Positions 31,774 to 56,207 are shown, counted from the first letter of the stretch. The stretch: DNA of 64,000 nt from Thermoplasmata archaeon (GCA_022750335.1 JAKIVX010000007.1:1-64000); one strand, 5' to 3'. Notes: generated by a model from the letters alone, not told the origin. Made by a program: numbers and translations.

Positions 31774-31888
31774 GGTCACTCGTCCATCCGACGCGGGGTT
31801 CAAGAGACGGGCGGGTAGGACGTTCTGCTCTGGTTAGTCGCCGTCCGGATCCCGATTCCGCGAGCGGACCAACCCTGTTGCGGCTCCG

Positions 31889-37906: not shown

Positions 37907-37940
37907 TGGGGGCCGACGGCCGGGCCGTGGGCGGCGGCTC

Positions 37941-38384
37941 CTACTTCGGACCCCCGGAGACGCGGCGGACCGCCCGTCGCGTCGCGGACCGGATCCGGCC
38001 TTCGGCCCTCCGCCCCGTGCGCGCCACGTGCTGTCCGACCGATCGACCGCGCGACCGGACCCGTCGGACGGCCGCCCGCCCCTGGTCCATTTCGTGCTCG
38101 GCCATTCCCTTCGCCGCCCGGTATGCCCGGACGGCGGGCGTTCGGGCCGCCGCACCGATACGCCGCGTCACCGACCGCGAGGCGGTGGCGACCTCGTCAC
38201 CGAACTGGTGGACCCGCTGCGAGGCGGTTCGCCCCGCGAAGTGGGGCGCCTCCGCTCCGCCGGGGATCCAGTCGATCGGGAACCAATCGACCGGTTCAAC
38301 GAGCGCGTTCGGCATGACCGCTCCGCAGCTGGGACACTGCGGCGCTTCGGCGGGCACCTCGGCGAGACATACGGGACACTTCAT
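37941..38384 (-). CDS. zinc-ribbon protein with basic C-terminus
   Basis: MKCPVCLAEVPAEAPQCPSCGAVMP. Confidence 0.65.
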   Translation of the reverse strand: MKCPVCLAEVPAEAPQCPSCGAVMPNALVEPVDWFPIDWIPGGAEAPHFAGRTASQRVHQFGDEVATASRSVTRRIGAAARTPAVRAYRAAKGMAEHEMDQGRAAVRRVRSRGRSVGQHVARTGRRAEGRIRSATRRAVRRVSGGPK

Positions 38385-38670
38385 CGCGTTCACCTTCCAC
38401 GGCTCCGCGGATTCAATCCCAGACCCGGCGTATAAGGGCCGGAGCACGGCCCGTGAGAAACTGGATAGCACCTCGCCCAACCGTAACGGACCGCGTCCCT
38501 CGGGTGCGGGGGGGACGCTCCCCGCCGGGCGCCAACGGAGGCGCCCGATCCTCCGAACGGGGGGTCCGCCCGGCCCCGGGACGGAATCCCGGCGGCAGCG
38601 GGGCCTTCGTGCTTCGAAGGTGCTATCCCCCCCCGGACCGTCCAAATCGTTGTTTCCGGGGGACACGAGG

Positions 38671-40053
38671 ATGCCGGCTCTGTCGATCTGCATCAACACG
38701 CAGACGCCCCTCGTTCAGTTTCTGGGGACGAACCCGGGGACTTCCGCGCCGGGAAGCCCTCGGGCCGATCTGGACCTCGCCGCTCTGACGGAGGGGCGCG
38801 ATTACCGCTACTCACCGGGGGGCGTCACCCGGATGGTCTACCCGCTCGTCCGCCGGTTGATCCACGAGGGCGTGCTCCGCGAGGCCCACTGGGTGGCGCT
38901 GAACCCCCACGCCCCCCCGACCGTCCGGCTGAACGATCTCACGCTGCACAACGTCTCGATCGCGGGCGATCGAATGGCCGGCTACGGCACCGTCAAGGAG
39001 GCGATCTGGGGTCGGATCCACGAGCTCAACGGGGTCGAGGAGCACGACGAGCTGTTCTGGTCCGAGGCGTTCTCCGAGTACGCGTACTACAATCGGCGGA
39101 CGGCCGAGCTCATCCAGCAACTGGACGAGAAGTTCGATTTCGACGCGTTCTATATCCACGATTTTCAGCAACTCGCGGTCGGCCACATGCTCGGCACGCT
39201 CAAGCCGAAGATCTTCCGGTGGCACATTCCCTTCGATGCAGCCACGATCCCGGACAAGTGGCGCGCGATGCTGTCGACCTACCTCCGCAGCTACGATGTC
39301 GTCGTCGTGAGCGCCCAGAGCTACGCGAAATCCCTTCGCCAGCTCGAACCGACGGGGAAGGTGATCCGGCTCTACCCGTACATCGACCCCACCGATTACT
39401 CCCACCCGAACGCCGTCCAGGTGGAGGCGGTGAGCCGTCGGATCGGGCTCGCGCCCGAGGACCAGATCGCCCTGGTCGTCGGCCGCATGGACCCGATCAA
39501 GGGCCAAGACCTGGCCATCTCCGCGTTCGCGGCGGTCGCGGCCGACTACCCCCACCTCAAGCTCGTCCTGGTCGGCAACGGGAGCTTCTCCGGGTCGGCG
39601 TCGGGGTTGGGCCTCTCCAAGTCGGCCCGCTGGCGGACGCACCTCGAGGAGATGGTCGTGGAGGCCCGTCTCCAGGACCGCGTCCTCTTCACCGGCCACC
39701 TGGGCCAGGAGGAGCTCGACAGTCTCTACGAACGCTGTCGGTTCACGTTGCTCCCCTCGGTCCGGGAGGGGTTCGGGCTCGTGGCGGTCGAGAGCTGGAT
39801 CCACGACCGGCCGGCCATCGTCACAGAGCGGGCCGGTATCGCCGAACTGATCCGGGACGGAGTGAACGCCCTCCTGTTCGATCCGGACGAATCCGGGGCG
39901 CTCGTCCGGCAGATGAAGCGCCTCTTGGACGACCCGGGAGGGAAACTTCGGGCCCGCTTGGTGCGGAACGGGCGCACGACGGCGAGGAAGTGTTCGCTGG
40001 ACGCGGCCGAGCGGGCCGAGGGCGAGATGCTGGCCGCCGTCACGGAGGCGTAG
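38671..40053 (+). CDS. GT4-family glycosyltransferase, TreT (trehalose synthase)-like
   Basis: FDAFYIHDFQQLAVGHML...FRWHIPFDAATIP...VVGRMDPIKGQDLAI...LLPSVREGFGLVAVESWIHDRPAIVTERAGIAELI. Confidence 0.75.
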   Translation: MPALSICINTQTPLVQFLGTNPGTSAPGSPRADLDLAALTEGRDYRYSPGGVTRMVYPLVRRLIHEGVLREAHWVALNPHAPPTVRLNDLTLHNVSIAGDRMAGYGTVKEAIWGRIHELNGVEEHDELFWSEAFSEYAYYNRRTAELIQQLDEKFDFDAFYIHDFQQLAVGHMLGTLKPKIFRWHIPFDAATIPDKWRAMLSTYLRSYDVVVVSAQSYAKSLRQLEPTGKVIRLYPYIDPTDYSHPNAVQVEAVSRRIGLAPEDQIALVVGRMDPIKGQDLAISAFAAVAADYPHLKLVLVGNGSFSGSASGLGLSKSARWRTHLEEMVVEARLQDRVLFTGHLGQEELDSLYERCRFTLLPSVREGFGLVAVESWIHDRPAIVTERAGIAELIRDGVNALLFDPDESGALVRQMKRLLDDPGGKLRARLVRNGRTTARKCSLDAAERAEGEMLAAVTEA

Positions 40054-40812
40054 ATGGTCAACCTGGCGGTCCTCGGCGCGCAGCTCGCCTTCCTGGTGCC
40101 GGTCGCGGTCATCATCCTGGTCACGGTCGTGCTCGCGTGGGTGGTCGGCCTCCTGGTGGGCCGGCTCACCCAGCGCACCAGCCCGCACATGGCCGGCGCG
40201 GCGCGCCGCCTCGCGGTCATCGTGGTCGCGCTCATCGGGGGAACGCTCGCCCTCCAGGCCCTGGGGGTGAGCCCGGACATCCTCCTGCTCGTGGTGGCCC
40301 TGCTCGGGGCGACGGCGCTGATCGCGCTCCGCGACCCGCTCGGGAACTACGGCGCGAAGTACTTCTCCGACATCTACACGCCGTTCAAGGTCGGCGACAC
40401 GATCCAGGTCGGAGCCTACTCCGGCAAGGTCATCGAGATCAACCCCATGGCGACGGTCCTCCTCTCCGACAAGGAGCAGCTGATCTCGCTGCCGAACGCA
40501 GCGCTGCTCCGGGACGTGGTCACCAACACGTCGCCGCAGGCGTGGAAGGAGGTCACCGTCCCGGTCACGCTGCCCGGGAGCGTCGACCTGCCGGCGTTCG
40601 AGAGCGAGCTGCTGAAGAGCCTGTCGAAACTGCGGATGCGGCTCGACCCCCGCTTCCCCCCCGTCGTGACGACCAAGGCCCGGTCCCCCCAGTCGACCGA
40701 GCTCGCCGTGACGCTGATGCTGCGACGGCCCGAGGACCGGGATGCCATCACGTCGGAAACGAACAAGCGGCTCGGCGAGGTCCTCGAGCAGGTCCGGGGC
40801 GCCCGTCGCTAG
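40054..40812 (+). CDS. MscS-family mechanosensitive ion channel
   Basis: ALIALRDPLGNYGAKYFSDIYTPFKVGDTIQVGAYSGKVIEINPMATVLLSDKEQLISLPNAALL. Confidence 0.85.
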   Translation: MVNLAVLGAQLAFLVPVAVIILVTVVLAWVVGLLVGRLTQRTSPHMAGAARRLAVIVVALIGGTLALQALGVSPDILLLVVALLGATALIALRDPLGNYGAKYFSDIYTPFKVGDTIQVGAYSGKVIEINPMATVLLSDKEQLISLPNAALLRDVVTNTSPQAWKEVTVPVTLPGSVDLPAFESELLKSLSKLRMRLDPRFPPVVTTKARSPQSTELAVTLMLRRPEDRDAITSETNKRLGEVLEQVRGARR

Positions 40813-41543
40813 GCGTCGGCCGGTCCCACCCGGGCGCGGAGCGGGCCGGTCACGAACTCGAGCACGCCCCGGTCGAACGGCCGGCGGCAGACGTATCCGA
40901 CCACGCTCCGGACGGTCGGGATGGCATTCGCCACGGCCCCAGAGAGGGCGGCCCGGCGCAGCATCTCGATGTCGTTCTCCGCGTCGCCGATGGCCGCGTA
41001 GCCCGCCCGCGGGTCCCCGAGCAGACCCAGCGCCGTGCGGATGCCCGCGTGCTTGTCGAGGTCCGCCGGCACGACCATGAGCCGGTCGACGTTCGCCTCG
41101 ATCCGGACCGGCAACCCCGCCAGCGCGCGCCGCAGCGTGCGCCCTTGCGCCCGCGGGACGGACGCGACGACCCGCCCGAGTTCGGGCTGGAGGCTCGGGT
41201 GCGCCGCCAGGCGGCGTCGGACGGCCCGGGCCGTCCGGAGCCCCCGGACGCGCGGGGGCCGGCCGATCGGCGCCTCCACCACTGCCCCGTCCTCGGCCAC
41301 CCACCCATCCCACTCCCCGAACGGCCGGGCGAGACGCGCCAGGTCCTCGTACGGTCGTCCGGAGACGAGCAGCACCGGGAGCCCCCACGCGCGGACCTCC
41401 CGAAGGGCTCGGCGCGCGGCCTCGGTGGCCCGACCTCCTGGGCGGAGGATCGTGCGGTCGAGGTCGGTGACGAAGGCCCCCACGCGGGAAGCGCCTTCCG
41501 GGGGCGGACGAATTTTAGGGGAGGAGGTAGTACCCGACGTCAT
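40809..41543 (-). CDS. HAD-superfamily sugar-phosphate phosphatase-like
   Basis: FVTDLDRTILRPGG...LLVSGRPYEDL...AAIGDAENDIEMLRRA. Confidence 0.8.
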   Translation of the reverse strand: MTSGTTSSPKIRPPPEGASRVGAFVTDLDRTILRPGGRATEAARRALREVRAWGLPVLLVSGRPYEDLARLARPFGEWDGWVAEDGAVVEAPIGRPPRVRGLRTARAVRRRLAAHPSLQPELGRVVASVPRAQGRTLRRALAGLPVRIEANVDRLMVVPADLDKHAGIRTALGLLGDPRAGYAAIGDAENDIEMLRRAALSGAVANAIPTVRSVVGYVCRRPFDRGVLEFVTGPLRARVGPADA

Positions 41544-41632
41544 ACGGAGGGGGAATCACGTGGCCCGGCCTAGTTACGGGTTGCGCAGCAGCAGTAACCC
41601 GACGGAGAGCGCGACCGACGGGAGGGAGTCGA

Positions 41633-43534
41633 TTGACCGAGGACAATGAACCCGTGTCCAGGCAGCCGCCCGCCGCGCTGCCGCGAGAGGCGGCGGCGGG
41701 GCGGGGCCCGGCCCCCGACCGTGGGCCCGACCCCCGCGAGCCCGAACCGAGCATCTACGACTACGGGCTGATCGGGAACGAGAAGACCGGGGCGCTCATC
41801 TCGCGCTTCGGATCCGTCGACTGGGCCTGCCTCCCCCGGTTCGATAGTCCGAGCGTCTTCGGCCGACTCTTGGACCGCGACCGAGGGGGTTTCCACCAGG
41901 TCGCGCCGCGCGATCGGTACGTCTCGCACCAGCTGTACGTTCCGGGAACGAACCTCCTCACGACGTTCTTCGAGCTACGGCGGGGGATCAGCCTCATCCT
42001 GACCGACTTCATGCCGATGGGTCCGCCCGGCTCCTCCATGGGGGGCGACCCCCGGATCGTGCGTCGCCTGGTGGCGAAGGGGGGCCCGATCGACGTCACG
42101 GTCGAGGCGGTTCCGCGCTTCACGTATGGCGAATTCGTTCCCGACTGGTCGACGTCCGAGGGTACCGCCGCCGCCCGCCACGACGGGGACCGGGTGTCGT
42201 TCGCCGCGCCCTGGGCATGGACGACCGAGGGGGCGGGGGTGCGGGCGTCCGGACGCGTCGACCCCGGCACCCCCGCCTTCCTCCAAGTGCGCTGGGGCGA
42301 CCCTCCGCCGGCAGAACCGTCACCGGCCACGCTGCTCGCGGTGACGGACGCGTACTGGCGCGGCTGGGTCTCGCCGGTCGACGCGCCGCTGCGTCGGGTC
42401 GCCGCCCGGTGGCATCCCTGGGTCGAGCGCTCCGAACTGGTCCTCAAGCTGCTCTCCTACGCCGATTCGGGGGTGTTCGTCGCGGCCCCGACCACGTCCC
42501 TCCCCGAGTGGCCCGGCGGCCCGCGCAACTGGGACTACCGGTTTGTCTGGATCCGGGACGCCGCATTCACGGCCCAGGTATTCCTCCTGCTCGGTCATCT
42601 GAACGAGGCCCGCGCCTACGTCGGCTGGGCGCTCGACCGGGCCGCCGAGCTCCGCGACGGGGACGAACTTCGTACGGTCTACACGGTCGACGGGTTGCCT
42701 CCACCGGACGAGCGCGAGCTCTCCCACCTCGAGGGGTACCGCGGGTCGCGCCCGGTCCGTGTGGGGAACGCGGCCGCGGACCAACGCCAACTCGACATCT
42801 ACGGCGAGATCCTCGATTCCGCCACGCTCTTGGAGCCGGTGGACCCGGCGTTCGTGCGGGACCGGTGGCCGCTCATCGAGCGACTGGCCCAGCGCGCCGT
42901 CGACCTGTGGGCCCGGCCGGATAGCGGGATCTGGGAGTTCCGCACCCGGCCGGCGCAGTATGTCCACTCGAAGTTGATGTGCTGGGTCGCGCTCGACCGG
43001 GCGGTCCAGCTCGCGGAGGCGTTCGGGAAGACCGACCCGGTCGACCGGTGGCGGCGCGTGGCCGACGAGATCCGGGCGACCATCCTCTCGCGCGGGTACG
43101 ACGACTCCCTCGGCGCGTTCGTCCAGGCGTTCGACCGACCGGTCGTGGACGCGAGCGCCCTGCGGATCTCCCTAGACGGCCTGCTCCCGGCTAACGACCC
43201 CCGGGTCCTCAGCACCCTGGCCGCGGTCGAGCGGAGCCTCTGCCGCGGGGCGTTCGTCCAGCGGTACGCGAGCGACGACGGACTCGCCGGTCCCGAAGGC
43301 GCGTTCCTGCTGTGCTCCTTCTGGCGGGTCGAGTCCCTCGCGCGGAGCGGCCAGATGGATCGGGCGCTCGAGTATTGGCGAGCGCTCCTCGATGCGGCCG
43401 GTCCGCTGCTTCTCTTCTCGGAGCAGTTCGATCCGGTGGCCCAGCAGCCCCTCGGGAACTACCCTCAGGCGTTCACCCATATCGGGGTGCTCCGAGCGGC
43501 CTTCGCCCTGGGACTGATGTCGAGCGAGCGCTGA
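41633..43534 (+). CDS. GH15 glycoside hydrolase (glucoamylase/trehalase-like)
   Basis: YGLIGNEKTGALISRFGSVDWACLPRFDSPSVF, GGPRNWDYRFVWIRDAAFT, SLCRGAFVQRYASDDGLAGPEGAFLLCSFW. Confidence 0.9.
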   Translation: MTEDNEPVSRQPPAALPREAAAGRGPAPDRGPDPREPEPSIYDYGLIGNEKTGALISRFGSVDWACLPRFDSPSVFGRLLDRDRGGFHQVAPRDRYVSHQLYVPGTNLLTTFFELRRGISLILTDFMPMGPPGSSMGGDPRIVRRLVAKGGPIDVTVEAVPRFTYGEFVPDWSTSEGTAAARHDGDRVSFAAPWAWTTEGAGVRASGRVDPGTPAFLQVRWGDPPPAEPSPATLLAVTDAYWRGWVSPVDAPLRRVAARWHPWVERSELVLKLLSYADSGVFVAAPTTSLPEWPGGPRNWDYRFVWIRDAAFTAQVFLLLGHLNEARAYVGWALDRAAELRDGDELRTVYTVDGLPPPDERELSHLEGYRGSRPVRVGNAAADQRQLDIYGEILDSATLLEPVDPAFVRDRWPLIERLAQRAVDLWARPDSGIWEFRTRPAQYVHSKLMCWVALDRAVQLAEAFGKTDPVDRWRRVADEIRATILSRGYDDSLGAFVQAFDRPVVDASALRISLDGLLPANDPRVLSTLAAVERSLCRGAFVQRYASDDGLAGPEGAFLLCSFWRVESLARSGQMDRALEYWRALLDAAGPLLLFSEQFDPVAQQPLGNYPQAFTHIGVLRAAFALGLMSSER

Positions 43535-43671
43535 GTCCGGCGCCCTTCCATTCGGCGCGGCGGACTCGGCACGGACTTCCGGGGCGGTGCCGCCCCAACC
43601 GTAGGGCCTGTCGCGCCCGGTACCTCCCACGTCCGGCCGTACGGAGTCTCGAACGATAGGTTTCAGGAGGG

Positions 43672-43756
43672 TGCGGGGAGAGGGACTTGAACCGCCGAAC
43701 CCCTACGGGACCAGACCCTGAATCTGGCGCCTTTGGCCAAACTTGGCAATCCCCGC
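43672..43756 (-). tRNA. tRNA-Leu(CAG), copy 1
   Basis: GCGGGGATTGCCAAG...CCAGA TTCAGGG TCTGG...GGCGGTTCAAGTCCCTC TCCCCGC A; class II; one C:C mismatch in T stem. Confidence 0.85.
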
Positions 43757-44770
43757 GCGCGGCGGCGTGCGCCCGGACCATTAAGAGCCTGAGGCTCCGG
43801 GGCCCTGCGCCGACTGGACGATAAGTGCCCCCCCGGGATTGCGGGCACCATGGTGGAGCGCTCGGAGACACCGTCGCAGGCGCTCCGCCGCGTGAACGCC
43901 CTGGAGCGACGCCTCGCGCCGCTCGACCGGGCCATCCTCGAGGTGGAGTGGCGGCAAGCGAGCGGTCGGGCGACGCGGGGCGCCGCGTCGTTGCAGCGCC
44001 GACGCCTCGCCCTGCTGGCGGAACCGGGCCTCGCACGGCGACTTCGGTCTGCGACGCGCGAGCTCGCCCGGCCGTCCCAGCGGCGACGCGCGGAGCTGTT
44101 GCTCCGGACGACGGTGGAGGTCCAGGTCGAACAAGGGCCGGAGATCGTGCGCCTCCGCGACCCGCTCGTACGCCGGATCTCCGCCTTCCATCCGAGATGG
44201 AAGGGTCGCCGGAGCAGCCGTGGCGCGCTCCGTCAGATTCAGCGATCGAACTCGGACCGCGTGCATCGGGAGTCTGCCTGGCGAGGCGAAGAGCCCCTCT
44301 TCCGACCGATGGAGTCCGCGTTGGGCAACTCGTCGCGCTCCGAAACTCCCGAGCCCGGGAGTTCGGGTTCCGGTCGTTTCCCGAGTACCGGCTCGCGACG
44401 GAGGGTTTGTCGGTCGCCCGGTTACGGGAGCTCATGGAGGCCGCGACCCGCTGGGTTCCGGACGAGATGGGCCGTGCGCGCGAGGAGTTCGAGGACGCCA
44501 CAGGCGAGCGCGGCTGGTACCCCTGGGACGCCCTCTACGCCCAGCAGCTCCGGGCGCCGATGCCCGAGACCTCGTTCCCGGGCCACGGCATGCTGCCGGC
44601 CGTCCTTCGCGGGGTCCGGGCGTGGGGGATTCCATCCTCCCTGCTCCGGTTCCGCGTCGACTACCACGACCTTCCTGCCGGCGGGATCTCGCTCGCACCA
44701 GACCCACCGCGCGACGTGCGGGTCGTCGTCCATCCCGAAGGGGGGTGGGAGCGGTACGGGATCCTGTTTC
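43672..44770 (+). repeat. 1.1 kb direct repeat, copy 1
   Basis: Matches 53661-54759; starts at tRNA-Leu discriminator base. Confidence 0.85.
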
Positions 44771-44940
44771 GCGATCGCGCCGCGATCGGTGGACGGTCGC
44801 CGATGCGCCGCGGCATCCCTGGGCCGCCGGGGGGAAACCGATCGGTCGGCTTGCGGGCGCGTCCGGGGGCCGAATCTCGCGTCGGTTTGCCCCGAAGGTT
44901 GGGGGCGGCCGTACGCGGCCGTCGGATCGAGTAACCGACG
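43850..44940 (+). pseudogene. truncated, frameshifted copy of the 53838 metallopeptidase gene
   Basis: Near-identical to 53838-54759; single-base deletion near 44325 (TTGGGCAACTCG vs TTGGCGGGACTCG); homology stops at GILF just before HEVGH. Confidence 0.85.
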
Positions 44941-45004
44941 GGTGACCCCCTCCACCCGGGGGTTATGTACGATGAAAACGAACCGTTCCTTCGAGGAGGG
45001 GAAG

Positions 45005-45250
45005 ATGGCAGAATTGTGTGCCCTGTGCCAAGCGGAGTTCGCCTCCCCGGCGGAACTGGTTGCGCACACCCACAAGGTCCATGGCGCGGATCGGCCCGCC
45101 GGCTCGGAAATACCCAACGCCCCTGAAGAGACCGGATCCTTCCGATGCGGACTGTGCGGCGCCGTGTTCTCGCGACCGTCCGAGTTGGCGAGGCACAACA
45201 TGGTCCCCCACTCTCCCGCCGGGCCGCCTGCGGAGCCGACGGCTGCCTGA
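45005..45250 (+). CDS. small protein with two C2H2 zinc fingers
   Basis: CALCQAEFASPAELVAHTHKVH and CGLCGAVFSRPSELARHNMVPH; SD-like gaggagg upstream. Confidence 0.8.
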   Translation: MAELCALCQAEFASPAELVAHTHKVHGADRPAGSEIPNAPEETGSFRCGLCGAVFSRPSELARHNMVPHSPAGPPAEPTAA

Positions 45251-45450
45251 GAGAGGGCTCCGTCGCTCGACCCCCGCGCGTGCTGCGCGGGACCCGTCCT
45301 TCGTTCGACCGGCAGACGAAACAGGGCGGACCCGGGGAATGCGGGTCGTCCTCGCCTTGGCGCGTCCCGCGGCGAGGGTTCGAACGCGACAACGGTGAGG
45401 GACGGCCGGAGCTCGGACCTTCGCCGGTCGCACCCGGGGAACTCCCCCGG

Positions 45451-45669
45451 TCAAAGGAGGGCCATTCCGCCAAATGCGAAGAGGTACAGGCCCACGGCGA
45501 TGGCCACCACCCCAACGACCACGAGGACCCAATGAACCAACGCTGCGGCGATCAGCGCCACTACTCCGCCGACCAGGAGGAGGAGGGCGAGGGAATAACC
45601 GTAGGGAGCGCCATCGGACGGACGAGGGCCGCGCCCTACATCACGGGTAAGTTCCCGATTCGTTACCAC
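45451..45669 (-). CDS. small membrane protein
   Basis: Two hydrophobic segments in 72 aa ORF. Confidence 0.5.
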   Translation of the reverse strand: MVTNRELTRDVGRGPRPSDGAPYGYSLALLLLVGGVVALIAAALVHWVLVVVGVVAIAVGLYLFAFGGMALL

Positions 45670-45727
45670 CTATCCCTAGTCGGGTCCGCCGAGGACTTCC
45701 CGGGGTCCGCGCGGAGCGTTTATCTCA

Positions 45728-47713
45728 ATGCTCGTGAGTTCCGAGTCCGTGACGCAATCCCGGCGGCGTCTTGCCGCCATCATGTTCACCGACATGGTCG
45801 GCTACTCCGCCCTCGCCCAGGCGGACGAGGCGTCGGCGCTGGCACTGCTCGACCGGCACAACCGGCTGCTACGGCCCGTCTTCGCCCGATTCCACGGACG
45901 GGAAGTGAAGACCGTCGGCGACGCCTTCCTGATCGAGTTCGACAGCGCGCTCGACGCGACGCAGTGCGCGCTCGAGGTCCAGCGCTCCCTCTACGACTTC
46001 AACCTCGCGGCCCCGCCGGCGGCGAGGATCCAGGTCCGCATCGGGATCCACGTGGGGGACGTCGTTCCGTCGGGCAACGACGTGCTGGGGGACGCGGTGA
46101 ACATCGCCTCGCGCATCGAGCCGTTGGCCGACCCGGGCGGGATCTGTCTCACGCAACAGGTCTACGACCAGGTCGAGAACAAGGTCGCCGTTCCGATGGT
46201 GAAGATGCCGGCCGTTGCTCTCAAGAACATCCGGCTCCCGATGAACGTGTACCGGGTCATCGGACCATGGGAGGCGCCGGCGCCGGAGGTCCGGGTCACG
46301 CGCCTCCGGAGCGGCCACCACCTCGCCGTCCTCCCGATGGCCAACATCAGTCCGGACCCGAACGACGGGTACTTCGCGGACGGCCTCACCGAGGAGTTGA
46401 TCGCCGTCCTCTCCCAGGTGCGCGACCTGAGCGTCATCGCTCGTACGTCGGTGACCCCGTACAAGGCGACGTCGAAATCCGTGGCCCAGGTCGGGGCCGA
46501 GTTGGGCGTCGATACCGTGCTCGAGGGGAGCGTGCGGAAGGCGGGGAACCGGATCCGGATCACGCTGCAGCTCATCGACGTCGCGACGCAGGGGCACATC
46601 TGGGCGAACAGCTACAACCGGGAGCTGGACGACGTATTCGCGGTCCAGACCGACGTCGCGGAGCGGACGGCGGAGGCGCTCCGACTTGAGCTGTCGAAGG
46701 CGGAACAGGCCAACGTCACCCGGCGTCCCACCGCCAACGCCGCCGCCTACGACCAGTACCTGCGGGGCCTCGTGGCTACGAATAACGTCACGGCGCTCCG
46801 GCTCGAGGAGGCCGTCCGCGCGTTCGAGCGGGCGACGACCTTGGACCCGACGTTCGCCGAGGCGTACGCCGCCTGGGCCAACGTCTACGTCATGGCGGCG
46901 GGGGACTTTGTATCGATGCCGAAGGTGATGCCCCGCGCCCGGGAGCTCGCCGACCGGGCGCTCGCGCTCGACCCCGAATCGTCCGACGCGCACTCGGCGC
47001 TCGCCAACATTGCCTTCCAGTTCGACCACGACTGGGCCCTCGCCGAACGGGAATTCGAGCGAGCGATCGCCCTCAACCCGAGCAACCTCATGGCCCACCG
47101 GTTCTTCGGTCTCATGCTGGTCGCGCTCGAGCGGTTCGAGGAGGCTCGGGAGGTCATCCAGCGCACTATTCGACTCGACCCCGGCGGAAACCATCAGATG
47201 ATGCTCGCCTGGGCCGAACTCGACGTCGGCCACATCGAGGTCGCGATCGAGATGATCGAACAGCTCCCGCACCGCAATTCCGCGGACGTGCACCACCGAA
47301 TCTTCCTCGGCCTCGCGTATCTCGCCGCTGGGCGACGGGCGGATGCACTCCGGGAGGCCTCGACTCCGATCGGGGACGCGGACGACGATCTCCGATTCGA
47401 CCACGCGCTGCTGAACGCCCTGCTCGGCCGCCCCTCGGGGGCCCGCGCGGTCGCGGAAGAGGTGGAACGCGGTGCCTGGAAGACCTACTTGTCCGGGACG
47501 CACCTCGCCATGGCGTACTCGGTCCTCGGAGAGAAGGACCGGGCGCTCGCGCTCCTCGAAAAGGACTTTCGGGACGGCGAACGGGTGCTGTGGCTATGGT
47601 ACCGGGGCCTCTTCTTCGACCCCATCCGGGACGACCCGCGTTTCCTCGCGCTCCTCCGGCAGTACGGCCTGCCGACTCACGGCGTGAACCGGATAACCCC
47701 GCGGACGGACTGA
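45728..47713 (+). CDS. class III adenylate/guanylate cyclase fused to TolB-like domain and TPR repeats
   Basis: AAIMFTDMVGYSALAQ, VKTVGDAFLIEF, GIHVGDVV, LGDAVNIASRIE; DGLTEELIAVLSQVRDLSVIARTSV...YNRELDDVFAVQ; C-terminal TPRs. Confidence 0.92.
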   Translation: MLVSSESVTQSRRRLAAIMFTDMVGYSALAQADEASALALLDRHNRLLRPVFARFHGREVKTVGDAFLIEFDSALDATQCALEVQRSLYDFNLAAPPAARIQVRIGIHVGDVVPSGNDVLGDAVNIASRIEPLADPGGICLTQQVYDQVENKVAVPMVKMPAVALKNIRLPMNVYRVIGPWEAPAPEVRVTRLRSGHHLAVLPMANISPDPNDGYFADGLTEELIAVLSQVRDLSVIARTSVTPYKATSKSVAQVGAELGVDTVLEGSVRKAGNRIRITLQLIDVATQGHIWANSYNRELDDVFAVQTDVAERTAEALRLELSKAEQANVTRRPTANAAAYDQYLRGLVATNNVTALRLEEAVRAFERATTLDPTFAEAYAAWANVYVMAAGDFVSMPKVMPRARELADRALALDPESSDAHSALANIAFQFDHDWALAEREFERAIALNPSNLMAHRFFGLMLVALERFEEAREVIQRTIRLDPGGNHQMMLAWAELDVGHIEVAIEMIEQLPHRNSADVHHRIFLGLAYLAAGRRADALREASTPIGDADDDLRFDHALLNALLGRPSGARAVAEEVERGAWKTYLSGTHLAMAYSVLGEKDRALALLEKDFRDGERVLWLWYRGLFFDPIRDDPRFLALLRQYGLPTHGVNRITPRTD

Positions 47714-47745
47714 GGGGGACCTCGGTCGCCCGCCCGGCCCATCGG

Positions 47746-48213
47746 TCACCAGTCGTACGGCGACCGAAGGTCGTGCCCGTTCTCGAGGACGGACTTGAGG
47801 TTCATCTGGAAGTAGGTCCACCCGCGGATAGCCCCGTCGTAGAGGTCGACCCAGGCCCCGTGCTTCCGGAATCCGGAGTGGGTGAAGGTGAGAACGCTCC
47901 CACCCTCCCGGGGTTCGACCGACAGGCGCAGCGTGGTCCGGGGGAGCCGCTCATGGCCGGGCCACTGCCACGTGAGGGTGAGGCGTTTTCCGCGAACGAA
48001 TTCGAGCACCGTTCCGGTGTGGGTCGGACCGTCCTCCCAGCTGAACGCATACGTGCCGCCCTTGCGCGGGGTGAGGGACGCTCGGTCCATGAACCATCGC
48101 GTCATGAGCTCGGGTTCGGTGATCGCCCGGAACACCTGCTTCGTCGAGGCATGGATGAAGATCGGGCTCCGGATCGTTCGGGTCGTCCGTGGGGCCATGC
48201 CGGGCCGACTCAC
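47746..48213 (-). CDS. SRPBCC/AHSA1 domain protein
   Basis: SPIFIHASTKQVFRAITEPELMTRWFMD...GGTYAFSWEDGP...GWTYFQMNLKSVLENG. Confidence 0.8.
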   Translation of the reverse strand: MSRPGMAPRTTRTIRSPIFIHASTKQVFRAITEPELMTRWFMDRASLTPRKGGTYAFSWEDGPTHTGTVLEFVRGKRLTLTWQWPGHERLPRTTLRLSVEPREGGSVLTFTHSGFRKHGAWVDLYDGAIRGWTYFQMNLKSVLENGHDLRSPYDW

Positions 48214-48568
48214 TTCGGGCGGTTAACGCCCCGGGGAACCCTGGGGCGACCGTCCGGGCCGCTTGGTTACCGACGCACCCAGATTCCGGAGAAAGTCCCG
48301 GAAGTCGAGACTCCGCGACCGAGGCCACGGCGTGCCGGACGGAGGCTCGTGGAACTCCCGGGAGCTGGGAGAGGCCACCGGGCCGGGAGGTGCGGTCACC
48401 CACCGGGAAGTTGGCGCACGCGACCCGGTCATCGACGCAGCCGCCCTGCACCGGGGATGGAGGAAGTTTCCTGCCGGGCCCGATCTCGGTCCGCGTCGAC
48501 CGGCGCCCTCGAGGGCCCGTTCTCGAGGATGGGCTGTTTCGCGGGACCGGGGTGGGCCCCCGTACCCC

Positions 48569-49042
48569 CTAGTCCCGACGGGTGCTGCTCCGGGAGGGGA
48601 TCTCGTGGAAGCGTTCGCCGCGCCGCATCTCGCGTTGCACGGCATCCACCTCCGGGGGTGGCGCGCGCGGTCGCCGTTGCTCGAGATCGAACCAAACGCC
48701 CTCGGACGTGACCTCGGCGGCCACCTCGCCCGCCGCCGTGCGGAAGGTGTTGCTCAGCTGGAAGCGGAGCCCATCCCCGGACACGCCCACGAGCTCGAGA
48801 TCCACCGTGAACTCGTCCAGGAGGCGCAGCTCCTTGCGGTAGACGAGCTCGTCCCGCACGATCACTGGCCCGAAGTGCTCCGCGGCGAACCGGGCGACCG
48901 ATAGTCCGTGCAGCGCGAAGAACCGAACGCGTGTATCGGACGCTCGGTCGAGGAACGCCGTATTCCCCATGTGCCCATTCCCGTCGATGTCCCCCCAACC
49001 GACCCGGAACGACTGTTCGAATCGAGGGGTTTCCGTGACCAT
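48569..49042 (-). CDS. 4HBT thioesterase
   Basis: FRVGWGDIDGNGHMGNTAFLDRASDTRVRFF. Confidence 0.8.
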   Translation of the reverse strand: MVTETPRFEQSFRVGWGDIDGNGHMGNTAFLDRASDTRVRFFALHGLSVARFAAEHFGPVIVRDELVYRKELRLLDEFTVDLELVGVSGDGLRFQLSNTFRTAAGEVAAEVTSEGVWFDLEQRRPRAPPPEVDAVQREMRRGERFHEIPSRSSTRRD

Positions 49043-49123
49043 CTCCTCCGAATCCTCCCGGGCTTGCCCGCACTCCGCCGTACGGTTACTGCCCAGTCGG
49101 TGGTTCGAGAAGAGGCTTCCGAA

Positions 49124-49579
49124 CTAGAGAGACCGGACCGTGAACTGCACTTCGCAGTTTGCCCAGGCGACCGGGTCGCTCCACGGGTCCGCCGAGTAGA
49201 CCTCGCGGATCCCCGTGACCGACCCGATCTTTCCCTCCCGTCGCTGCGATCGAGTCCAATCGTTCAGTCCGTGGTAGACTACACTCGACGAGACCTGGTC
49301 CGGGTCGAAGACGACGCGCGCGACGAGGGTCGCGGGCAGCATCTTCAGGCGAACCCGTCCTTCAGCTCGTGCGCTCCCCCGGAACTCGAGGCACGCCTCC
49401 CACCGATGGTGGTCACGCTCGACAAAAATCCACCGACCGGTGGAGAGTCGCTGGTGCTTCGCCCACCGGGTCAGCTCCCCGAATTCGGTCCGCAGATTGT
49501 CCTCCCGCCAAGGCCCCACCCGCACGATGCACGCCACCCGAACGCTCGGCGCGCGCTGGAGACGGAACTCGACGACCAT
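49124..49579 (-). CDS. hypothetical protein
   Basis: ORF of 151 aa with plausible protein-like composition. Confidence 0.45.
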   Translation of the reverse strand: MVVEFRLQRAPSVRVACIVRVGPWREDNLRTEFGELTRWAKHQRLSTGRWIFVERDHHRWEACLEFRGSARAEGRVRLKMLPATLVARVVFDPDQVSSSVVYHGLNDWTRSQRREGKIGSVTGIREVYSADPWSDPVAWANCEVQFTVRSL

Positions 49580-49694
49580 CCTTTCGGCTCCGGCAGGGAT
49601 GCTCCGGAGCCTCCCAGAGCCGGCACGGGGGATAGCGTACGGGCCGCCCGGGGGCGGGTCGAGCTAAATTACCTCCTCGAGGGATGTCGACGAG

Positions 49695-50456
49695 ATGACC
49701 GTGGTGGACGCCCGAGTGCGGGTCCATCACCCGTGCCCGTACTGCGACATCTCCACCGAATTCCCCCGGACCCTACTCCTGCTCTGGTGCGACAATCGGC
49801 GCGACGTCTTTTTCGTGTCGGCTCCGGATCCGGGCGAGCTGCGGCGGGTTCTCTCGGCGCTGCGAGATTCCTTCCACGCGCGCATCCTGATGGCGGAAGG
49901 GCGGGACGCTCTGGTGATCGTACCCGATTTTGAATGGGTCGACCCGCCCTCCGTCACCGGTCTCGCGCGCCGGAGCGGCGTCTGGGTTCTGCACCCCGTC
50001 GTGTACTTCGACGGGAAGGAGACCTACCGCATGCTCGCGCCGTCGAAAACCGAGCTCCATCGCCTCATCGCCCGGGTCCGTCGGCTCGGGGACGTCGAGA
50101 TCCTCTCGGTTACGGGCCGGACGGGTCTCGACGCGGTACGAGACCTTCCGAACGCTTCGGTGCACTTCTTCGAGGGGCTCACTGGTCGGCAGGCCCGGTC
50201 CCTGGTCGCGGCCTACGAAGGAGGGCTCTTTGAAGTTCCGGCGCGGTCCACGTGGAACGAGGTCGCCCGTCGGGAGGGCCTCTCCCGATCGACCTTCGGC
50301 GAACACCTGCGCAAAGCCCAGCTCCGGCTCCTCGCGAATAGCCACGGGTCGCTGAAAGCCCGGATCGGCGGAACGGACGCGCCGCAGGTTCTTCCCGCTA
50401 CGCCGAACGCCGGTCGGGTCCGGCGAACCCCACTCCGGGGGACCCGTCCAACCTAG
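49695..50456 (+). CDS. HTH_10 (bacterio-opsin activator type) regulator
   Basis: GLTGRQARSLVAAYEGGLFEVPARSTWNEVARREGLSRSTFGEHLRKAQLRLL. Confidence 0.85.
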   Translation: MTVVDARVRVHHPCPYCDISTEFPRTLLLLWCDNRRDVFFVSAPDPGELRRVLSALRDSFHARILMAEGRDALVIVPDFEWVDPPSVTGLARRSGVWVLHPVVYFDGKETYRMLAPSKTELHRLIARVRRLGDVEILSVTGRTGLDAVRDLPNASVHFFEGLTGRQARSLVAAYEGGLFEVPARSTWNEVARREGLSRSTFGEHLRKAQLRLLANSHGSLKARIGGTDAPQVLPATPNAGRVRRTPLRGTRPT

Positions 50457-50527
50457 GATTTCGGGCGAGTGGCCCGAGGAGAGCGCGGCGACCCACTGGG
50501 CCCGGGGTCCAAAGCCGCGCGCGTCGA

Positions 50528-51229
50528 CTACGGCATCCGGATCCCGTAGAGACCGAGCCCTTGGCGACGGACGGGCCGGGTCGCTCGGCTTCGCCCCCAG
50601 CTCCTCAGGGCCGCGCAGAGGCCACCGCCCGGACCATGGTCGGCAATCGCCACGGCCCCCGGTCCCATCCGCGGGTCGAGGAGTTGGAACTCCTTCCGCG
50701 TCGCGCCGTCCTCGTGCGGAACGTCGTATACGAACAGGTCGATGCGGGGGAGCTCCTCCGCGAGCAGTGGGAGCACCACCCGTTTGTCCCCCAGACGGAG
50801 ATCCCAGCGCTTCCGAAGGGCGAAGGGCACCGCCCAGCCCGAGGACCGCCCGGGAGGCAGGCTCCACGAAGCCTGGGAGGGCTTTCGGGCCCCGGACGAC
50901 GGGGCCGGCCGCTTCGGAAGGTCGACGGAGTGGAGCACCCCGTGGCCGTTCTTCTCGAGCGCATTCAACAGGTACGCGGACGAGACGCCGGAGGAGACCC
51001 CGACCTCCACGACATGGGTCGGGCGCAGGAGACGGACCAAGGCGTGCAGTTCGAGCGGCGCGTCAATCTCGATGTACGAGGCTCGTCCCTCCCGTCGATG
51101 TTCGGCCGCTACATGGGCGAACAACCGGGCTTCGTCCTGGGCTTCCTGGATCGCGGCTCGGGTGGCGTCCGGCCCGCCGCCACTCAACCCCTCGACCCAC
51201 GATGCGTCCGGGTCCTCCTCGGCCTGCAT
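50528..51229 (-). CDS. class I SAM methyltransferase (O-methyltransferase-like)
   Basis: HVVEVGVSSGVSSAYLLNALEKNGHGVLHSVDLP...IDLFVYDVPHEDGAT. Confidence 0.75.
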   Translation of the reverse strand: MQAEEDPDASWVEGLSGGGPDATRAAIQEAQDEARLFAHVAAEHRREGRASYIEIDAPLELHALVRLLRPTHVVEVGVSSGVSSAYLLNALEKNGHGVLHSVDLPKRPAPSSGARKPSQASWSLPPGRSSGWAVPFALRKRWDLRLGDKRVVLPLLAEELPRIDLFVYDVPHEDGATRKEFQLLDPRMGPGAVAIADHGPGGGLCAALRSWGRSRATRPVRRQGLGLYGIRMP

Positions 51230-51240
51230 GGGAGTGGGAC

Positions 51241-51684
51241 CTAGGACCGTTCGAGGTCGGCGGCCGTGCCGATCCACTCGCGAGCGTGCTCGACCTGCGG
51301 GCGGACCGCGCGGATGCGGTCGTACGCGCGGTCCAGGGGGATGCCCTCGGATCGTCGCAAGTACCAGGCGCCGGCGAGCGGGGAACGTCGCACCCCGTGA
51401 CCGCAGAAGACGAGGACCGTCTCGCCCTTCGCGTGGGCGCGACCGATGGCCTCGGCGAGCCGATCGAGGTTCTTCGTGTTCGCCCGGTCGCTCCCTTCGT
51501 CGTAGATGGGAATGTGGGTCGCCGGAGGCATGTCCGGAGGGGCCTCGTCCAGGACGCAGAAACGGACACCCTCGAACGGGAGCGCATCCTTCCACCCTCC
51601 CACAAACACCCCGGGGGCGATCTCGGAGGGGCCTCTCGGGCGCGCTTTGGTCCTTGCGGCACTCGGCTTCTTTGCTGATGGCAT
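51241..51684 (-). CDS. dual-specificity/tyrosine protein phosphatase-like
   Basis: CX5R loop VLVFCGHGVRRSPLAGAWYL. Confidence 0.8.
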   Translation of the reverse strand: MPSAKKPSAARTKARPRGPSEIAPGVFVGGWKDALPFEGVRFCVLDEAPPDMPPATHIPIYDEGSDRANTKNLDRLAEAIGRAHAKGETVLVFCGHGVRRSPLAGAWYLRRSEGIPLDRAYDRIRAVRPQVEHAREWIGTAADLERS

Positions 51685-51822
51685 GGGACTCCTTGCAGGG
51701 GGAAGCAGAGCGACCCCATCTTGATTGACCCGCCCCCGGGCGGCAGGGAGTGCCGGGGTGGTCCCACGATGGGCAAAGTCGGGACGGAGGGGGAGCCCGG
51801 TCCTACCACCGGCTCCGGGAAT

Positions 51823-52749
51823 CTAACCGGAGGTTGGTGGACGATGGGCAGAGGACTTGCTCAGTCCTTCCATGAATCGGATCAAGATCGAAAAGTCCGC
51901 GTCCATGCCCTGCGCCGTCGCGGCGGCGGCCATTTGCTGGGCCGCCGCGGTCGCCGGCATCGCGACCGAGAGTTCGTACGCTTCCCGAAGGACGAGGTCG
52001 AAGTCCTTGTGCATGAGAGAGAGGGCGAAGTTGGTGGGATACTCATCCCGCCGAACGTTCTCGAGTTTGGACTTCTGGCCCGGACTGAGTACGTACGTCT
52101 GCCCGAGCACATCGAGGAGCAATCCCTTCTCGATCCCTGCCTTGAGACCGAGCGCGATCGATTCGGCCAGGGCTTGCATGCCGAGGCCGAGGAGGGTGTT
52201 GACCACGAGCTTCATCGTGGTCCCCATGCCGCTCGCACCGATGTAGTAACTGTGGGGCCCGAGCACATCGAGGATCGGTTTGCACGTTTGATACGCCTCC
52301 GACTCTCCTCCGACGAAGATCACCAGCGTGGCTTGTTCGACCTGCGGGACGCTGCCCGAGACCGCCGCATCGATCATCGGGAGACCGCGTTCTGCCGCCG
52401 CCGCGTGGAGCCGTCGGGAAGCGCCCGGAGAGACGGTACTCAGGTCGATCATCATCGAACCGGAATGCACCCCCGCGAGCGCTCCGTCGGGACCGAACAT
52501 CACCTCGTGCTGGGCTTCATCACTCGTCACACTGCTCAGGACGACCTGGCAGTGCGCCGCCAGCTCCTTCGGGGTCGCGGCGGCGGTCGCCCCCCACGTT
52601 TCGGCCTCGCGGGCTCTCGCCGCCGTGCGGTCGTAAACCGCCACCGAGTAGCCCGCGGCCAGCAATCGGCGCGTCATGGCACCCCCCATGTGGCCCATGC
52701 CGATGAACCCGATTTTCGTTTCCGATTTGCTACTTCCCAGATTCGTCAC
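51823..52749 (-). CDS. 3-hydroxyisobutyrate dehydrogenase-family NAD(P)-dependent dehydrogenase
   Basis: KIGFIGMGHMGGAMTRRLLAAGYSVAVYDRT, DAAVSGSVPQVEQATLVIFVGG, MKLVVNTLLGLGMQALAE; start uncertain. Confidence 0.88.
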   Translation of the reverse strand: MTNLGSSKSETKIGFIGMGHMGGAMTRRLLAAGYSVAVYDRTAARAREAETWGATAAATPKELAAHCQVVLSSVTSDEAQHEVMFGPDGALAGVHSGSMMIDLSTVSPGASRRLHAAAAERGLPMIDAAVSGSVPQVEQATLVIFVGGESEAYQTCKPILDVLGPHSYYIGASGMGTTMKLVVNTLLGLGMQALAESIALGLKAGIEKGLLLDVLGQTYVLSPGQKSKLENVRRDEYPTNFALSLMHKDFDLVLREAYELSVAMPATAAAQQMAAAATAQGMDADFSILIRFMEGLSKSSAHRPPTSG

Positions 52750-52956
52750 GGCTCCCCCGAATTGGGCCGGACAACAGGCCCATCTCCCCAAGTGGAACCG
52801 GGTAGTTGATTCCTCCGAAGGCTGGAATCCCTGACGGCTTCGAATCCGCCTCATTCGTCCCTCGTCTCTTCGACGAGTAATCGGCGGGGAGGGGGATGTG
52901 AACCGTTCGAGGGTCCAATTCGATCGATTCGCGTCGGGGCTCCAGGCGAAATCGGG

Positions 52957-53265
52957 TTAGAGTCGCCGACGGAGCTCTCTGAGGGTCTTCTGCGTCACTC
53001 CGGCGCTCCGTTCGATCATGACGACCCAGACCATTTCGCCCGTCACGGCATAGAAAACTCGTACGTCCGTCGCCACGTGGAATCGCCAAACCCCACGCAG
53101 TTCGGCGATTTCCTTGACTGAGACCCCCGGATGGGAACGGAACGGGGCAGCGCGGAGAAACTCCAGTCTGTCCAGGATCCGTCGGCGAAGGGGGGCCGGC
53201 AGCTTGGCCCCATCCCGGACGGCCCGTGGGTCGAACCCGATCTGGTACGGGGTCAAACCCTCCAC
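52957..53265 (-). CDS. RelE/ParE-type toxin
   Basis: RRILDRLEFLRAAPFRSHPGVSVKEIAELRGVWRFHVATDVRVFYAVTGEMVWVVMIERS. Confidence 0.8.
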   Translation of the reverse strand: MEGLTPYQIGFDPRAVRDGAKLPAPLRRRILDRLEFLRAAPFRSHPGVSVKEIAELRGVWRFHVATDVRVFYAVTGEMVWVVMIERSAGVTQKTLRELRRRL

Positions 53266-53492
53266 CTGCGACGGACTTCGTTGGTGGAGACGGCCTTTAC
53301 TCGACCGGCATGAATGTCATCCACCCGTCGTTTCAGTTCAGCAATCACCCGGGGTGGGTAGTACTCTTCCGCCAATTCCTGAATCAGTGCGTCGTAACTC
53401 TCGCCCGGGCGTTTCAGGCTCTCGAGCAACTGACGGGTACTCGTGCGAATCGTAATCGTGGTGGGACGGTCGGCAAGGGCCATCGGTGCCAA
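53253..53492 (-). CDS. antitoxin of RelE-type module
   Basis: RPTTITIRTSTRQLLESLKRPGESYDALIQELAEEYYP, overlaps toxin start by 13 bp. Confidence 0.75.
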   Translation of the reverse strand: MAPMALADRPTTITIRTSTRQLLESLKRPGESYDALIQELAEEYYPPRVIAELKRRVDDIHAGRVKAVSTNEVRRRWRV

Positions 53493-53583
53493 TAGCTGGA
53501 CAATTGGCTTAAGGTTTCTGTGAGGTCAACCTCTCACCAAGCGCGACGAAGCGTGGTCGTTTCTCGAGCAGAGATTCGCGACA

Positions 53584-53655
53584 TGGGCCGGAGGGGGGAA
53601 TTGAACCGCCCCCTAGTTCGAATGCCCAAGGGTTGTTGACCGGGCCACCCACGAG
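53584..53655 (-). pseudogene. possible degenerate tRNA (T-arm/D-arm-like sequence)
   Basis: GTGGCCCGGTCAACAAC ... GGCGGTTCAATTCCCCC on minus strand; no matching acceptor stem found. Confidence 0.25.
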
Positions 53656-53660
53656 TGCGA

Positions 53661-53745
53661 TGCGGGGAGAGGGATTTGAACCCCCGAACCCCTACGGGAC
53701 CAGACCCTGAATCTGGCGCCTTTGGCCAAGCTTGGCAATCCCCGC
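53661..53745 (-). tRNA. tRNA-Leu(CAG), copy 2
   Basis: GCGGGGATTGCCAAGCTTGGCCAAAGGCGCCAGATTCAGGGTCTGGTCCCGTAGGGGTTCGGGGGTTCAAATCCCTCTCCCCGCA; all stems pair. Confidence 0.92.
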
Positions 53746-54759
53746 GCGGGGGAGCGTACGCCCGGACCATTAAGAGCCTGAGGCTCCGGGGTCCTCCGCC
53801 GACTGGACGATAAATGCCCCCCGAGATTGCGGGCACCATGGTGGAGCGGCCGGAGGCTCCGTCGCAGGCGCTCCGTCGCGTGAACGCCCTGGAGCGACGC
53901 CTCGCGCCGCTCGACCGGGCCATCCTCGAGGTGGAGTGGCGGCAAGCGAGCGGTCGGGCGACGCGGGGCGCCGCGTCGTTGCAGCGCCGACGCCTCGCCC
54001 TGCTGGCGGAACCGGGCCTCGCACGGCGACTTCGGTCTGCGACGCGCGAGCTCGCCCGGCCGTCCCAGCGGCGACGCGCGGAGCTGTTGCTCCGGACGAC
54101 GCTGGAGGTCCAGATCGAACAGGCGCCGGAGATCGTGCGCCTTCGCGACCCGCTCGTACGCCGGATCTCCGCGTTCCATCCCAGATGGAACGGTCGGCGT
54201 AGCAGCCGTGGCTCGCTCCGTGACATTCAGCGTTCGGACTCCGACCGCACCCACCGGGAGGCCGCCTGGCGGGGCGAAGAGCCCCTTTTCCAACCGATGG
54301 AGTCCGCGTTGGCGGGACTCGTCGCGCTCCGAAACACCCGAGCCCGGGAGTTCGGGTTCCGGTCGTTTCCCGAGTACCGGCTCGCCGCGGAGGGCTTGTC
54401 GGTCGCCCGGTTACGGGAGCTCATGGAGGCCGCGACCCGCTGGGTTCCGGACGAGATGGGCCGTGCGCGCGAGGAGTTCGAGGACGCCACAGGCGAGCGC
54501 GGCTGGTACCCCTGGGACGCCCTCTACGCCCAGCAGCTCCGGGCGCCGATGCCCGAGACCTCGTTCCCGGGCCACGGCATGCTGCCGGCCGTCCTTCGCG
54601 GGGTCCGGGCGTGGGGGATTCCATCCTCCCTGCTCCGGTTCCGCGTCGACTACCACGACCTTCCTGCCGGCGGGATCTCGCTCGCACCAGACCCACCGCG
54701 CGACGTGCGGGTCGTCGTCCATCCCGAAGGGGGGTGGGAGCGGTATGGGATCCTGTTTC
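53661..54759 (+). repeat. 1.1 kb direct repeat, copy 2
   Basis: Matches 43672-44770. Confidence 0.85.
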
Positions 54760-55373
54760 ACGAGGTCGGGCACGCGGTCGCCTCGGGGGCAGTACGCCAA
54801 CCCTCCCACCTCCTCCGTTGGCACGAACACGTCCCCGGGTTCGCCGCGATGAGCGAAGGGGAGGGCGGGTTCTTTGAGGGGATCGCAGCGACCGAGGCGT
54901 GGCTTCGAACGCGTCCCGGGCTCTCCCGGAAGCAGGTCGGGGCCGGGGTCGCCTCCGTCCGCCGCAGCACGCTCTACAACACCGCTTGGAACGTCGTCTG
55001 GATCTCCCGGGAGCTCGCGCTCTACGAGGACGGCCCTAACGGGCCGGAGGAGGTGGCGACGCGATTGAATCGCCGTCTCTTCGGATACGAGTCCCACGAG
55101 CCACTATCCTTCGCCGACGGCTTCTCGGTCGAACTCCCGCTGTACTCACCGAGTTACTTCCTCGCGACCCTCTTCGGGTCCACCCTCCGACGGGCCGTGC
55201 TCGCGGAGGTCGGCGGCCCGTTCTGGCCGAACCGAAAGGTCGGTCCCTGGCTCCTCCGGCACTGGATGCGGGAGGGTACGTCGTTCGATTGGACGACGCG
55301 GCTCCGGGAGCTCACCGGTGCGCGGTTGGACGCCCGGGCCTTCCTCGGCGAGACCCGCCCTGGGGCGAAGTAA
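53838..55373 (+). CDS. gluzincin metallopeptidase, M3/M32-like
   Basis: GILFHEVGHAVASG (HExxH) with downstream GFFEGIAATE; intact version of duplicated gene; ORF track start at 53814. Confidence 0.75.
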   Translation: MVERPEAPSQALRRVNALERRLAPLDRAILEVEWRQASGRATRGAASLQRRRLALLAEPGLARRLRSATRELARPSQRRRAELLLRTTLEVQIEQAPEIVRLRDPLVRRISAFHPRWNGRRSSRGSLRDIQRSDSDRTHREAAWRGEEPLFQPMESALAGLVALRNTRAREFGFRSFPEYRLAAEGLSVARLRELMEAATRWVPDEMGRAREEFEDATGERGWYPWDALYAQQLRAPMPETSFPGHGMLPAVLRGVRAWGIPSSLLRFRVDYHDLPAGGISLAPDPPRDVRVVVHPEGGWERYGILFHEVGHAVASGAVRQPSHLLRWHEHVPGFAAMSEGEGGFFEGIAATEAWLRTRPGLSRKQVGAGVASVRRSTLYNTAWNVVWISRELALYEDGPNGPEEVATRLNRRLFGYESHEPLSFADGFSVELPLYSPSYFLATLFGSTLRRAVLAEVGGPFWPNRKVGPWLLRHWMREGTSFDWTTRLRELTGARLDARAFLGETRPGAK

Positions 55374-55385: not shown

Positions 55386-56207
55386 TTAGGCGATCGCAGG
55401 GACGGTCGCCGGGTGGTGGCGGTTCTTCTCCGTGGTGAGGATGTCGAGCGCTTCGTTGACCTTCGCCTTCTCGTGTACGATTGCGCGCAATGCCTTCAAC
55501 ATCGCCACCGGGTGGTCGGATTGCCAGATGTTGCGCCCCATGTCGATGCCGTGCGCGCCGTCGTCGATCGCCCGACGTGCAAGCTCGAGCGCGGCCCGGT
55601 CGCTGTCGAGCTTCGGCCCTCCTGCGACGACGAGGGGCACAGGGCAACCCTCCACGACCTTCGAGAAGTTCTCGCAGTAGTACGTCTTCACGAGGTGGGC
55701 GCCCAGTTCGGCCGAAACGCGGCAAGCGAGTGCGAGGTAGCGGGCGTCCCGCTTTTCGAGCTCCTTGCCGACCGCCGTGATCGCCATCACGGGCATGCCG
55801 GCGGCCTCCCCCTCGTTGACCAGGCCGCCGAGATGCACGAGCGACTCGTGCTCGTGCGGACTTCCGACGAAGACGCTCATCGCGATCGCGCTCGCGTTGA
55901 GCCGGAGCGCCTCGCTCATCGAGGTCGTGATCGCCTCGTGGGAAAGGTCTTCGTGGAGGACGGTGACCCCGCCCGAGACCCGGAGTACGATCGGGGTCGT
56001 CGCGGTCGGGGGAACCGATCGGCGGAGGATCCCCCGGGTCAAGGCGAGCGCGTCGGCGTACGCCAGCAACGGAGCGATGGTCGCCTTGGCGTCCTCAAGT
56101 CGGTGGGTCGGTCCCATGAAGTAGCCGTGATCCACGGCGAGCATGACCGTGTTCCCGCTCGTTGGGGAGAACATCCGTCCGATCCGGTTCGCGATTCCCC
56201 AGTCCAT
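55386..56207 (-). CDS. class I aldolase/thiolase, LsrF-like (DeoC/FbaB superfamily)
   Basis: MDWGIANRIGRMFSPTSGNTVMLAVDHGYFMGPT, LVKTYYCENFSKVVEGCPVPLVVAGG, DMGRNIWQSDHPVAM resemble LsrF. Confidence 0.85.
   Translation of the reverse strand: MDWGIANRIGRMFSPTSGNTVMLAVDHGYFMGPTHRLEDAKATIAPLLAYADALALTRGILRRSVPPTATTPIVLRVSGGVTVLHEDLSHEAITTSMSEALRLNASAIAMSVFVGSPHEHESLVHLGGLVNEGEAAGMPVMAITAVGKELEKRDARYLALACRVSAELGAHLVKTYYCENFSKVVEGCPVPLVVAGGPKLDSDRAALELARRAIDDGAHGIDMGRNIWQSDHPVAMLKALRAIVHEKAKVNEALDILTTEKNRHHPATVPAIA

Follow-up and report, generated by a model that had tools for sequence, protein, structure and literature searches.

Long direct repeats that begin exactly at the end of a tRNA gene raise the question of whether the DNA between them entered the chromosome as one mobile element. 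The locus considered here, from a soil member of the archaeal order Lutacidiplasmatales, lies in a stretch of 64,000 nucleotides (GCA_022750335.1 JAKIVX010000007.1:1-64000), hereafter termed the window. An initial annotation had described a ~10-kb segment bounded by 1.1-kb repeats that start at the 3' end of tRNA-Leu(CAG), and had favored integration at that site over its main alternative, a tandem duplication followed by decay. Self-comparison of the window and alignment re-found the repeats at the same coordinates, offset by ~9,989 bp and with the same tRNA edge, the two copies being 95% identical. The features concerned are the following.

43672 to 44770, no strand assigned: repeat copy A, from self-comparison and alignment
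53661 to 54759, no strand assigned: repeat copy B, from self-comparison and alignment
43672 to 43756, minus strand: tRNA-Leu(CAG) copy A, with three derived substitutions and T-stem mismatches (37.8 bits)
53661 to 53745, minus strand: tRNA-Leu(CAG) copy B, identical to the tRNA of G026 (46.5 bits)
43850 to 44770, plus strand: peptidase pseudogene of copy A, truncated and frameshifted
53814 to 55373, plus strand: intact peptidase-like gene of copy B, 519 aa with an HEVGH motif

Homology between the copies sets in with the 3' nucleotide of each minus-strand tRNA (43672/53661) and ends at about 44769/54758 inside the plus-strand peptidase gene, just before the HExxH motif; each repeat comprises the whole tRNA and ~1 kb of its 5' side, reaching into the peptidase. 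The copies differ at 50 of ~1,100 sites, a frameshift included, a similarity far above chance. Copy A is decaying: a 1-nt deletion near 44324 shifts the peptidase reading frame, homology is lost immediately before HExxH so that the gene is truncated, and the tRNA has a T-stem mismatch. To call tRNA A a plain pseudogene would be too strong, as its score of 37.8 bits, like that of tRNA B (46.5), exceeds the Rfam tRNA gathering score of 29 bits. Orthologs of the peptidase adjoin the tRNA in two near relatives, G026 (JAKIWQ01, SubAcS13-64) and G036 (JASHSU01, JOPF135). The 519-aa HExxH protein matched no Pfam or NCBIfam family and has relatives that are ~40–88% identical; judged from its sequence, it may represent an undescribed metallopeptidase family.

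The surroundings of the repeats were compared with those of relatives through searches and extracted stretches, and this comparison places the 10-kb segment in a larger variable region with the following parts.

20842 to 23078, no strand assigned: left anchor, a PhoU/regulator-like gene (20842-21942) and an Fe-ADH-like gene (21939-23078), named from sequence inspection
23300 to 53660, no strand assigned: variable hotspot interval from the left anchor to tRNA-Leu B, delimited by comparison with relatives
28414 to 43671, no strand assigned: first cargo block, abutting the 3' end of tRNA A
44771 to 53660, no strand assigned: second cargo block, abutting the 3' end of tRNA B
52957 to 53492, minus strand: RelE-like toxin (52957-53265) and antitoxin-like ORF (53253-53492), from a PHROG RelE-like match and addiction-module matches
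55386 to 56207, minus strand: right flank, a DeoC/LacD-type aldolase gene (domain match), which adjoins tRNA-Leu in most relatives aligned

The first anchor gene is present in 70 of 78 genus genomes and the second in 28 of about 40 hotspot stretches, while tRNA-Leu(CAG) was found in 64 of the 78 genomes at the cut-off used. Anchor and tRNA share one contig in 30 other genomes, where they lie 2.0–24.3 kb apart (median 8.4 kb, computed by hand from search coordinates); in the window, tRNA A lies 21.7 kb and tRNA B 31.7 kb from the anchor. Relatives preserve the aldolase region 5' of the tRNA, with the peptidase between tRNA and aldolase in G000, G026, and G036, and a ~50%-identical relative of the peptidase adjoining the tRNA in G093 and G087. 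On the 3' side, homology that includes the tRNA ends within ~20 bases in every relative flank aligned, and the content beyond differs in every one. A cargo hotspot present across the genus has its fixed border at the 3' end of tRNA-Leu(CAG) and extends from the left anchor to the tRNA and aldolase, and the 10-kb segment is the right third of this hotspot, which occupies about 23.3–53.7 kb of the window. Since all DNA 3' of the tRNA varies within the genus, homology between any two haplotypes would stop exactly at the tRNA 3' end, and a sharp edge at this position is by itself no proof of a 10-kb insertion. In G091 (locus L100), ~5.4 kb of unrelated DNA lies between the 5' side of tRNA-Leu and the aldolase, the place that the peptidase holds in the window.

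Among the 78 genus genomes, the window alone carries two tRNA-Leu(CAG) genes on one contig. Three others (G022, G023, and G071) gave two matches each; these were set aside because they lie on separate contigs and probably reflect strain mixture or contig splitting.

The cargo itself is a mixture. The first block encodes a methyltransferase, MscS channels, an HxlR protein, a histidine kinase, response regulators, a glycosyltransferase, a HAD phosphatase, and a GH15 trehalase-like protein. In the second block, domain matches bore out the C2H2, cyclase-TPR, AHSA1/SRPBCC, HTH_10, and DSPc (CX5R) phosphatase genes and the RelE-type pair listed in the initial annotation, and added a 4HBT thioesterase, Methyltransf_24, and a 3-hydroxyisobutyrate-dehydrogenase-like gene. 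A defense search of the cargo with PADLOC returned weak matches only, of the cyclase to PycC and of the methyltransferase to a Mads protein.

Homologs of this cargo recur in the hotspot interval of relatives. Both G005 and G026 carry the stretch 23465-28204 inside the interval, and its right part recurs there in G061, G025, and G077; homologs of the first-block kinase, HxlR, and MscS genes occupy the interval of G036 in another order. Second-block homologs occur in the interval of nine relatives (G005, G025, G035, G061, G075, G082, G085, G092, and G100) with no known tandem tRNA: the dehydrogenase in G005; HTH_10 in G092 and G085; the methyltransferase/phosphatase pair in G092, G100, G035, and G085, with the phosphatase alone in G061; SRPBCC in G082; and the gene at 49124 in G075 and G025. 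The intervals of G005 and G035 are visible from the anchor side only, their contigs stopping before the tRNA. In these relatives the genes occur singly, in different combinations and orders, and not as one unit. The initial annotation had named the same internal genes in strains with a single tRNA-Leu(CAG) and no repeat as the finding that would speak against an inserted segment, and the nine relatives come close to it.

Beside tRNA A lies a trehalose-type cluster (38671-43534; TreT-like glycosyltransferase, MscS, HAD phosphatase, and GH15 TreH1-like genes), which in G026 and G005 is located elsewhere, with no tRNA detected nearby. In G005 the cluster and the phosphatase/methyltransferase pair, which in the window is hotspot cargo, are found on one contig stretch.

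A tyrosine integrase does occur at the same border in a congener. Contig C40 of G071 has a tyrosine-integrase frame of 500 codons immediately beyond the 3' end of tRNA-Leu(CAG), with its probable start codon ~45 nt from the tRNA. Relatives of this integrase are encoded in 15 further genus genomes; in 11 of the 16 other loci tRNA-Gly(CCC), tRNA-Thr, or tRNA-Cys is immediately upstream, and a motif containing GTTCATATC is common to their left ends, immediately following the tRNA. The genus therefore possesses an integrase family at tRNA 3' ends, with tRNA-Leu(CAG) as one of its sites. Its loci (L175-L191; G071, G079, G078, G026, G065, G013, G031, G033, G082, G067, G073, and others) place proteins of ~500 aa past tRNA-Leu(CAG), tRNA-Gly(CCC), tRNA-Thr(GGT/CGT), and tRNA-Cys(GCA), and several copies have internal stops. 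At the far ends of these congeneric elements, the fetched stretches contained no convincing displaced tRNA fragment or att core; one 12-nt match in G073 is near chance. None of the viral contigs searched carried the integrase.

A search of the window with the congeneric integrase yielded no match, no integrase remnant, and no copy of the left-end motif, in agreement with the initial annotation, which had seen no integrase. PF00589 was absent among the matches listed for contig C29, and the scanned cargo proteins contained no integrase domain. The window likewise held no convincing tRNA-derived att fragment and no displaced 3' fragment that passed a test. Two stretches to the left of tRNA B, 52884-52905 and 53586-53655, show a weak likeness to tRNA 3' ends that Rfam does not recognize; they bracket or adjoin the RelE-type pair. 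Across 59 genus sequences, T-arm-like motifs (TYGAACC or GGTTCRA) are ~8 times commoner in the first 100 nt past tRNA-Leu(CAG) than at greater distance, and often form an inverted pair that directly adjoins the tRNA (for example at L078, L079, L122, and L141); a small control, in which 20 further tRNAs from the genome were used, had 2 and 1 matches in 1.9 kb, and the enrichment may not be specific to tRNA-Leu(CAG).

The history of the two copies was compared against G026 and G036, the two near relatives with the same tRNA-peptidase arrangement. In unconverted segments, 22 sites join A with B and 5 conflict, and private changes number 21 in A and 7 in B. By this count A and B are sisters relative to G026, which places the duplication in the lineage of the window, after its split from G026. 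Identity between the copies is mosaic, with perfect blocks of 225 and 350 bp and ~90% identity in the remainder; none of 20,000 shuffles gave identical runs of such lengths, and against G026 the two blocks are only 84% and 91% identical, showing that they are not generally conserved. It follows from this combination that the copies have gone on exchanging sequence, by gene conversion or recombination.

How, then, did the tandem arise? Integration at the tRNA 3' end, as first proposed, holds insofar as the hotspot is variable in all relatives examined and an integrase occupies the same tRNA in G071, but the 10-kb segment as one element is not borne out, the variable region being about three times larger. 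Tandem duplication followed by decay fits as part of the history; a simple tandem fails, as the two tRNAs have unrelated sequences on their left and the copies stand 8.9 kb apart. The reading that we prefer as the most economical history, and to which we give about an even chance, is that two cargo haplotypes of the hotspot were joined in tandem. Two cargo blocks, each abutting its own border copy of tRNA-Leu and peptidase start, would have been brought together when two hotspot haplotypes underwent one unequal or illegitimate recombination or, equivalently, when a single crossover took in a hotspot-derived circle that carried the tRNA and the beginning of the peptidase; the breakpoint would lie inside the peptidase. 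Decay of the left border copy would have followed, while gene conversion would have kept homogenizing parts of both copies. Were the repeats to recombine with each other, 9,989 bp would be lost and one tRNA would remain. We infer such a joining event, together with a role of integrases in filling the hotspot and the reversibility of the arrangement; against the joining, neither 44770 nor 53660 showed an intermediate haplotype, a circle, or microhomology.

The main rival explains the same structure in two steps: a local 1.1-kb tandem of the tRNA and peptidase start would have formed, and the 8.9-kb cargo would then have accumulated next to tRNA B, at its 3' end, where the hotspot usually takes up insertions. 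The genus shows frequent insertion beside tRNA-Leu(CAG), the insertion point would account for the exact edge at tRNA B, and cargo homologs occur separately in relatives. This history requires two independent events, however, and a bare 1.1-kb tandem was seen in no relative; we regard it as rather unlikely, though deserving of attention. An artefact, in which assembly joined two strain variants of one locus, would accord with the nature of the genome, a 72%-complete MAG in 37 contigs, and with the separate-contig tRNA matches in G022, G023, and G071, and the identical stretches of 225 and 350 bp amid ~10% divergence are possible points at which an assembler switched. Yet the copies differ at 50 positions, including the frameshift, and the unique junctions at 44770 and 53660/53661 fall outside the identical stretches, so that a repeat-bounded molecule, tandem or circle, is implied anyway unless a junction itself is wrong; we consider such a chimera improbable. 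Least probable of all is a conventional ~10-kb integrative element, inserted site-specifically at the tRNA 3' end and later deprived of its integrase: the G071 integrase ~45 nt past the same tRNA, its relatives beside other tRNAs, and the RelE-type pair speak for it, but the window has neither an integrase nor its left-end motif, the internal genes are scattered one by one among relatives, and in place of a short att core confined to the 3' part of the tRNA, which in Archaea usually spans ~40–60 bp (PMC8371274), there are 1.1-kb repeats with the whole tRNA and its 5' side, too long and on the wrong side of the tRNA to be an attachment core.

It is enticing to speculate that the hotspot grows through excised hotspot circles, which would carry off the whole border, tRNA gene and part of the adjoining gene alike, and enter another genome at its own border, thereby concatenating cargo haplotypes even where no integrase is resident. 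In such a process the tRNA-adjacent integrases of congeners could act in trans; we offer this as a doubtful extension of the model.

Among known systems, the locus is best read as a tRNA-associated additive genomic island: it has the same location with a tRNA border in 30 relatives, and its length and content vary by cassette, from 2.0–24.3 kb in those genomes to 31.7 kb in the window. With the additive flexible genomic islands of Alteromonas (fGI1; PMC4119200) and Methylophilaceae (fGI-2; PMC10872708) it shares a conserved tRNA border, a genus-wide position, cassettes variable in number and content, and toxin-antitoxin cargo. Those islands repeat only the last 20–52 nt of the tRNA (PMC10872708, PMC4119200), whereas in the window no clear short tRNA-end repeats were found, and the whole tRNA is duplicated with ~1 kb of its 5' side, half a gene included. 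Islands mapped by Islander from a tRNA and its displaced fragment (PMC4383910) also insert beside tRNAs, and tandem arrays of them are known, but such islands normally leave a displaced tRNA fragment (PMC4383910), and the window has neither a displaced 3' fragment that passes a test nor an integrase. Tycheposons, as described in PMC10872708, similarly carry cargo from a tRNA to the first conserved gene; the interval in the window differs in having no tyrosine recombinase and a duplicated tRNA. The classical archaeal tRNA-targeting tyrosine integrases (PMC8371274) resemble those of G071 and other congeners, uninterrupted and directly downstream of a tRNA 3' end, but they are absent from the window, and neither far ends nor att cores could be located for the congeneric elements. 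The single paper on Lutacidiplasmatales genomes that was searched (PMC9287336), which lists SubAcS13-64 among them, makes no mention of integrases or genomic islands, and both the hotspot mapped here and a family of tRNA-targeting integrases in this order therefore look undescribed. Set beside these systems, the window illustrates how the border of a hotspot, and no single mobile element, can give rise to what looks like a 10-kb insertion bounded exactly by a tRNA, and it counsels caution toward genomic islands called from direct repeats alone.
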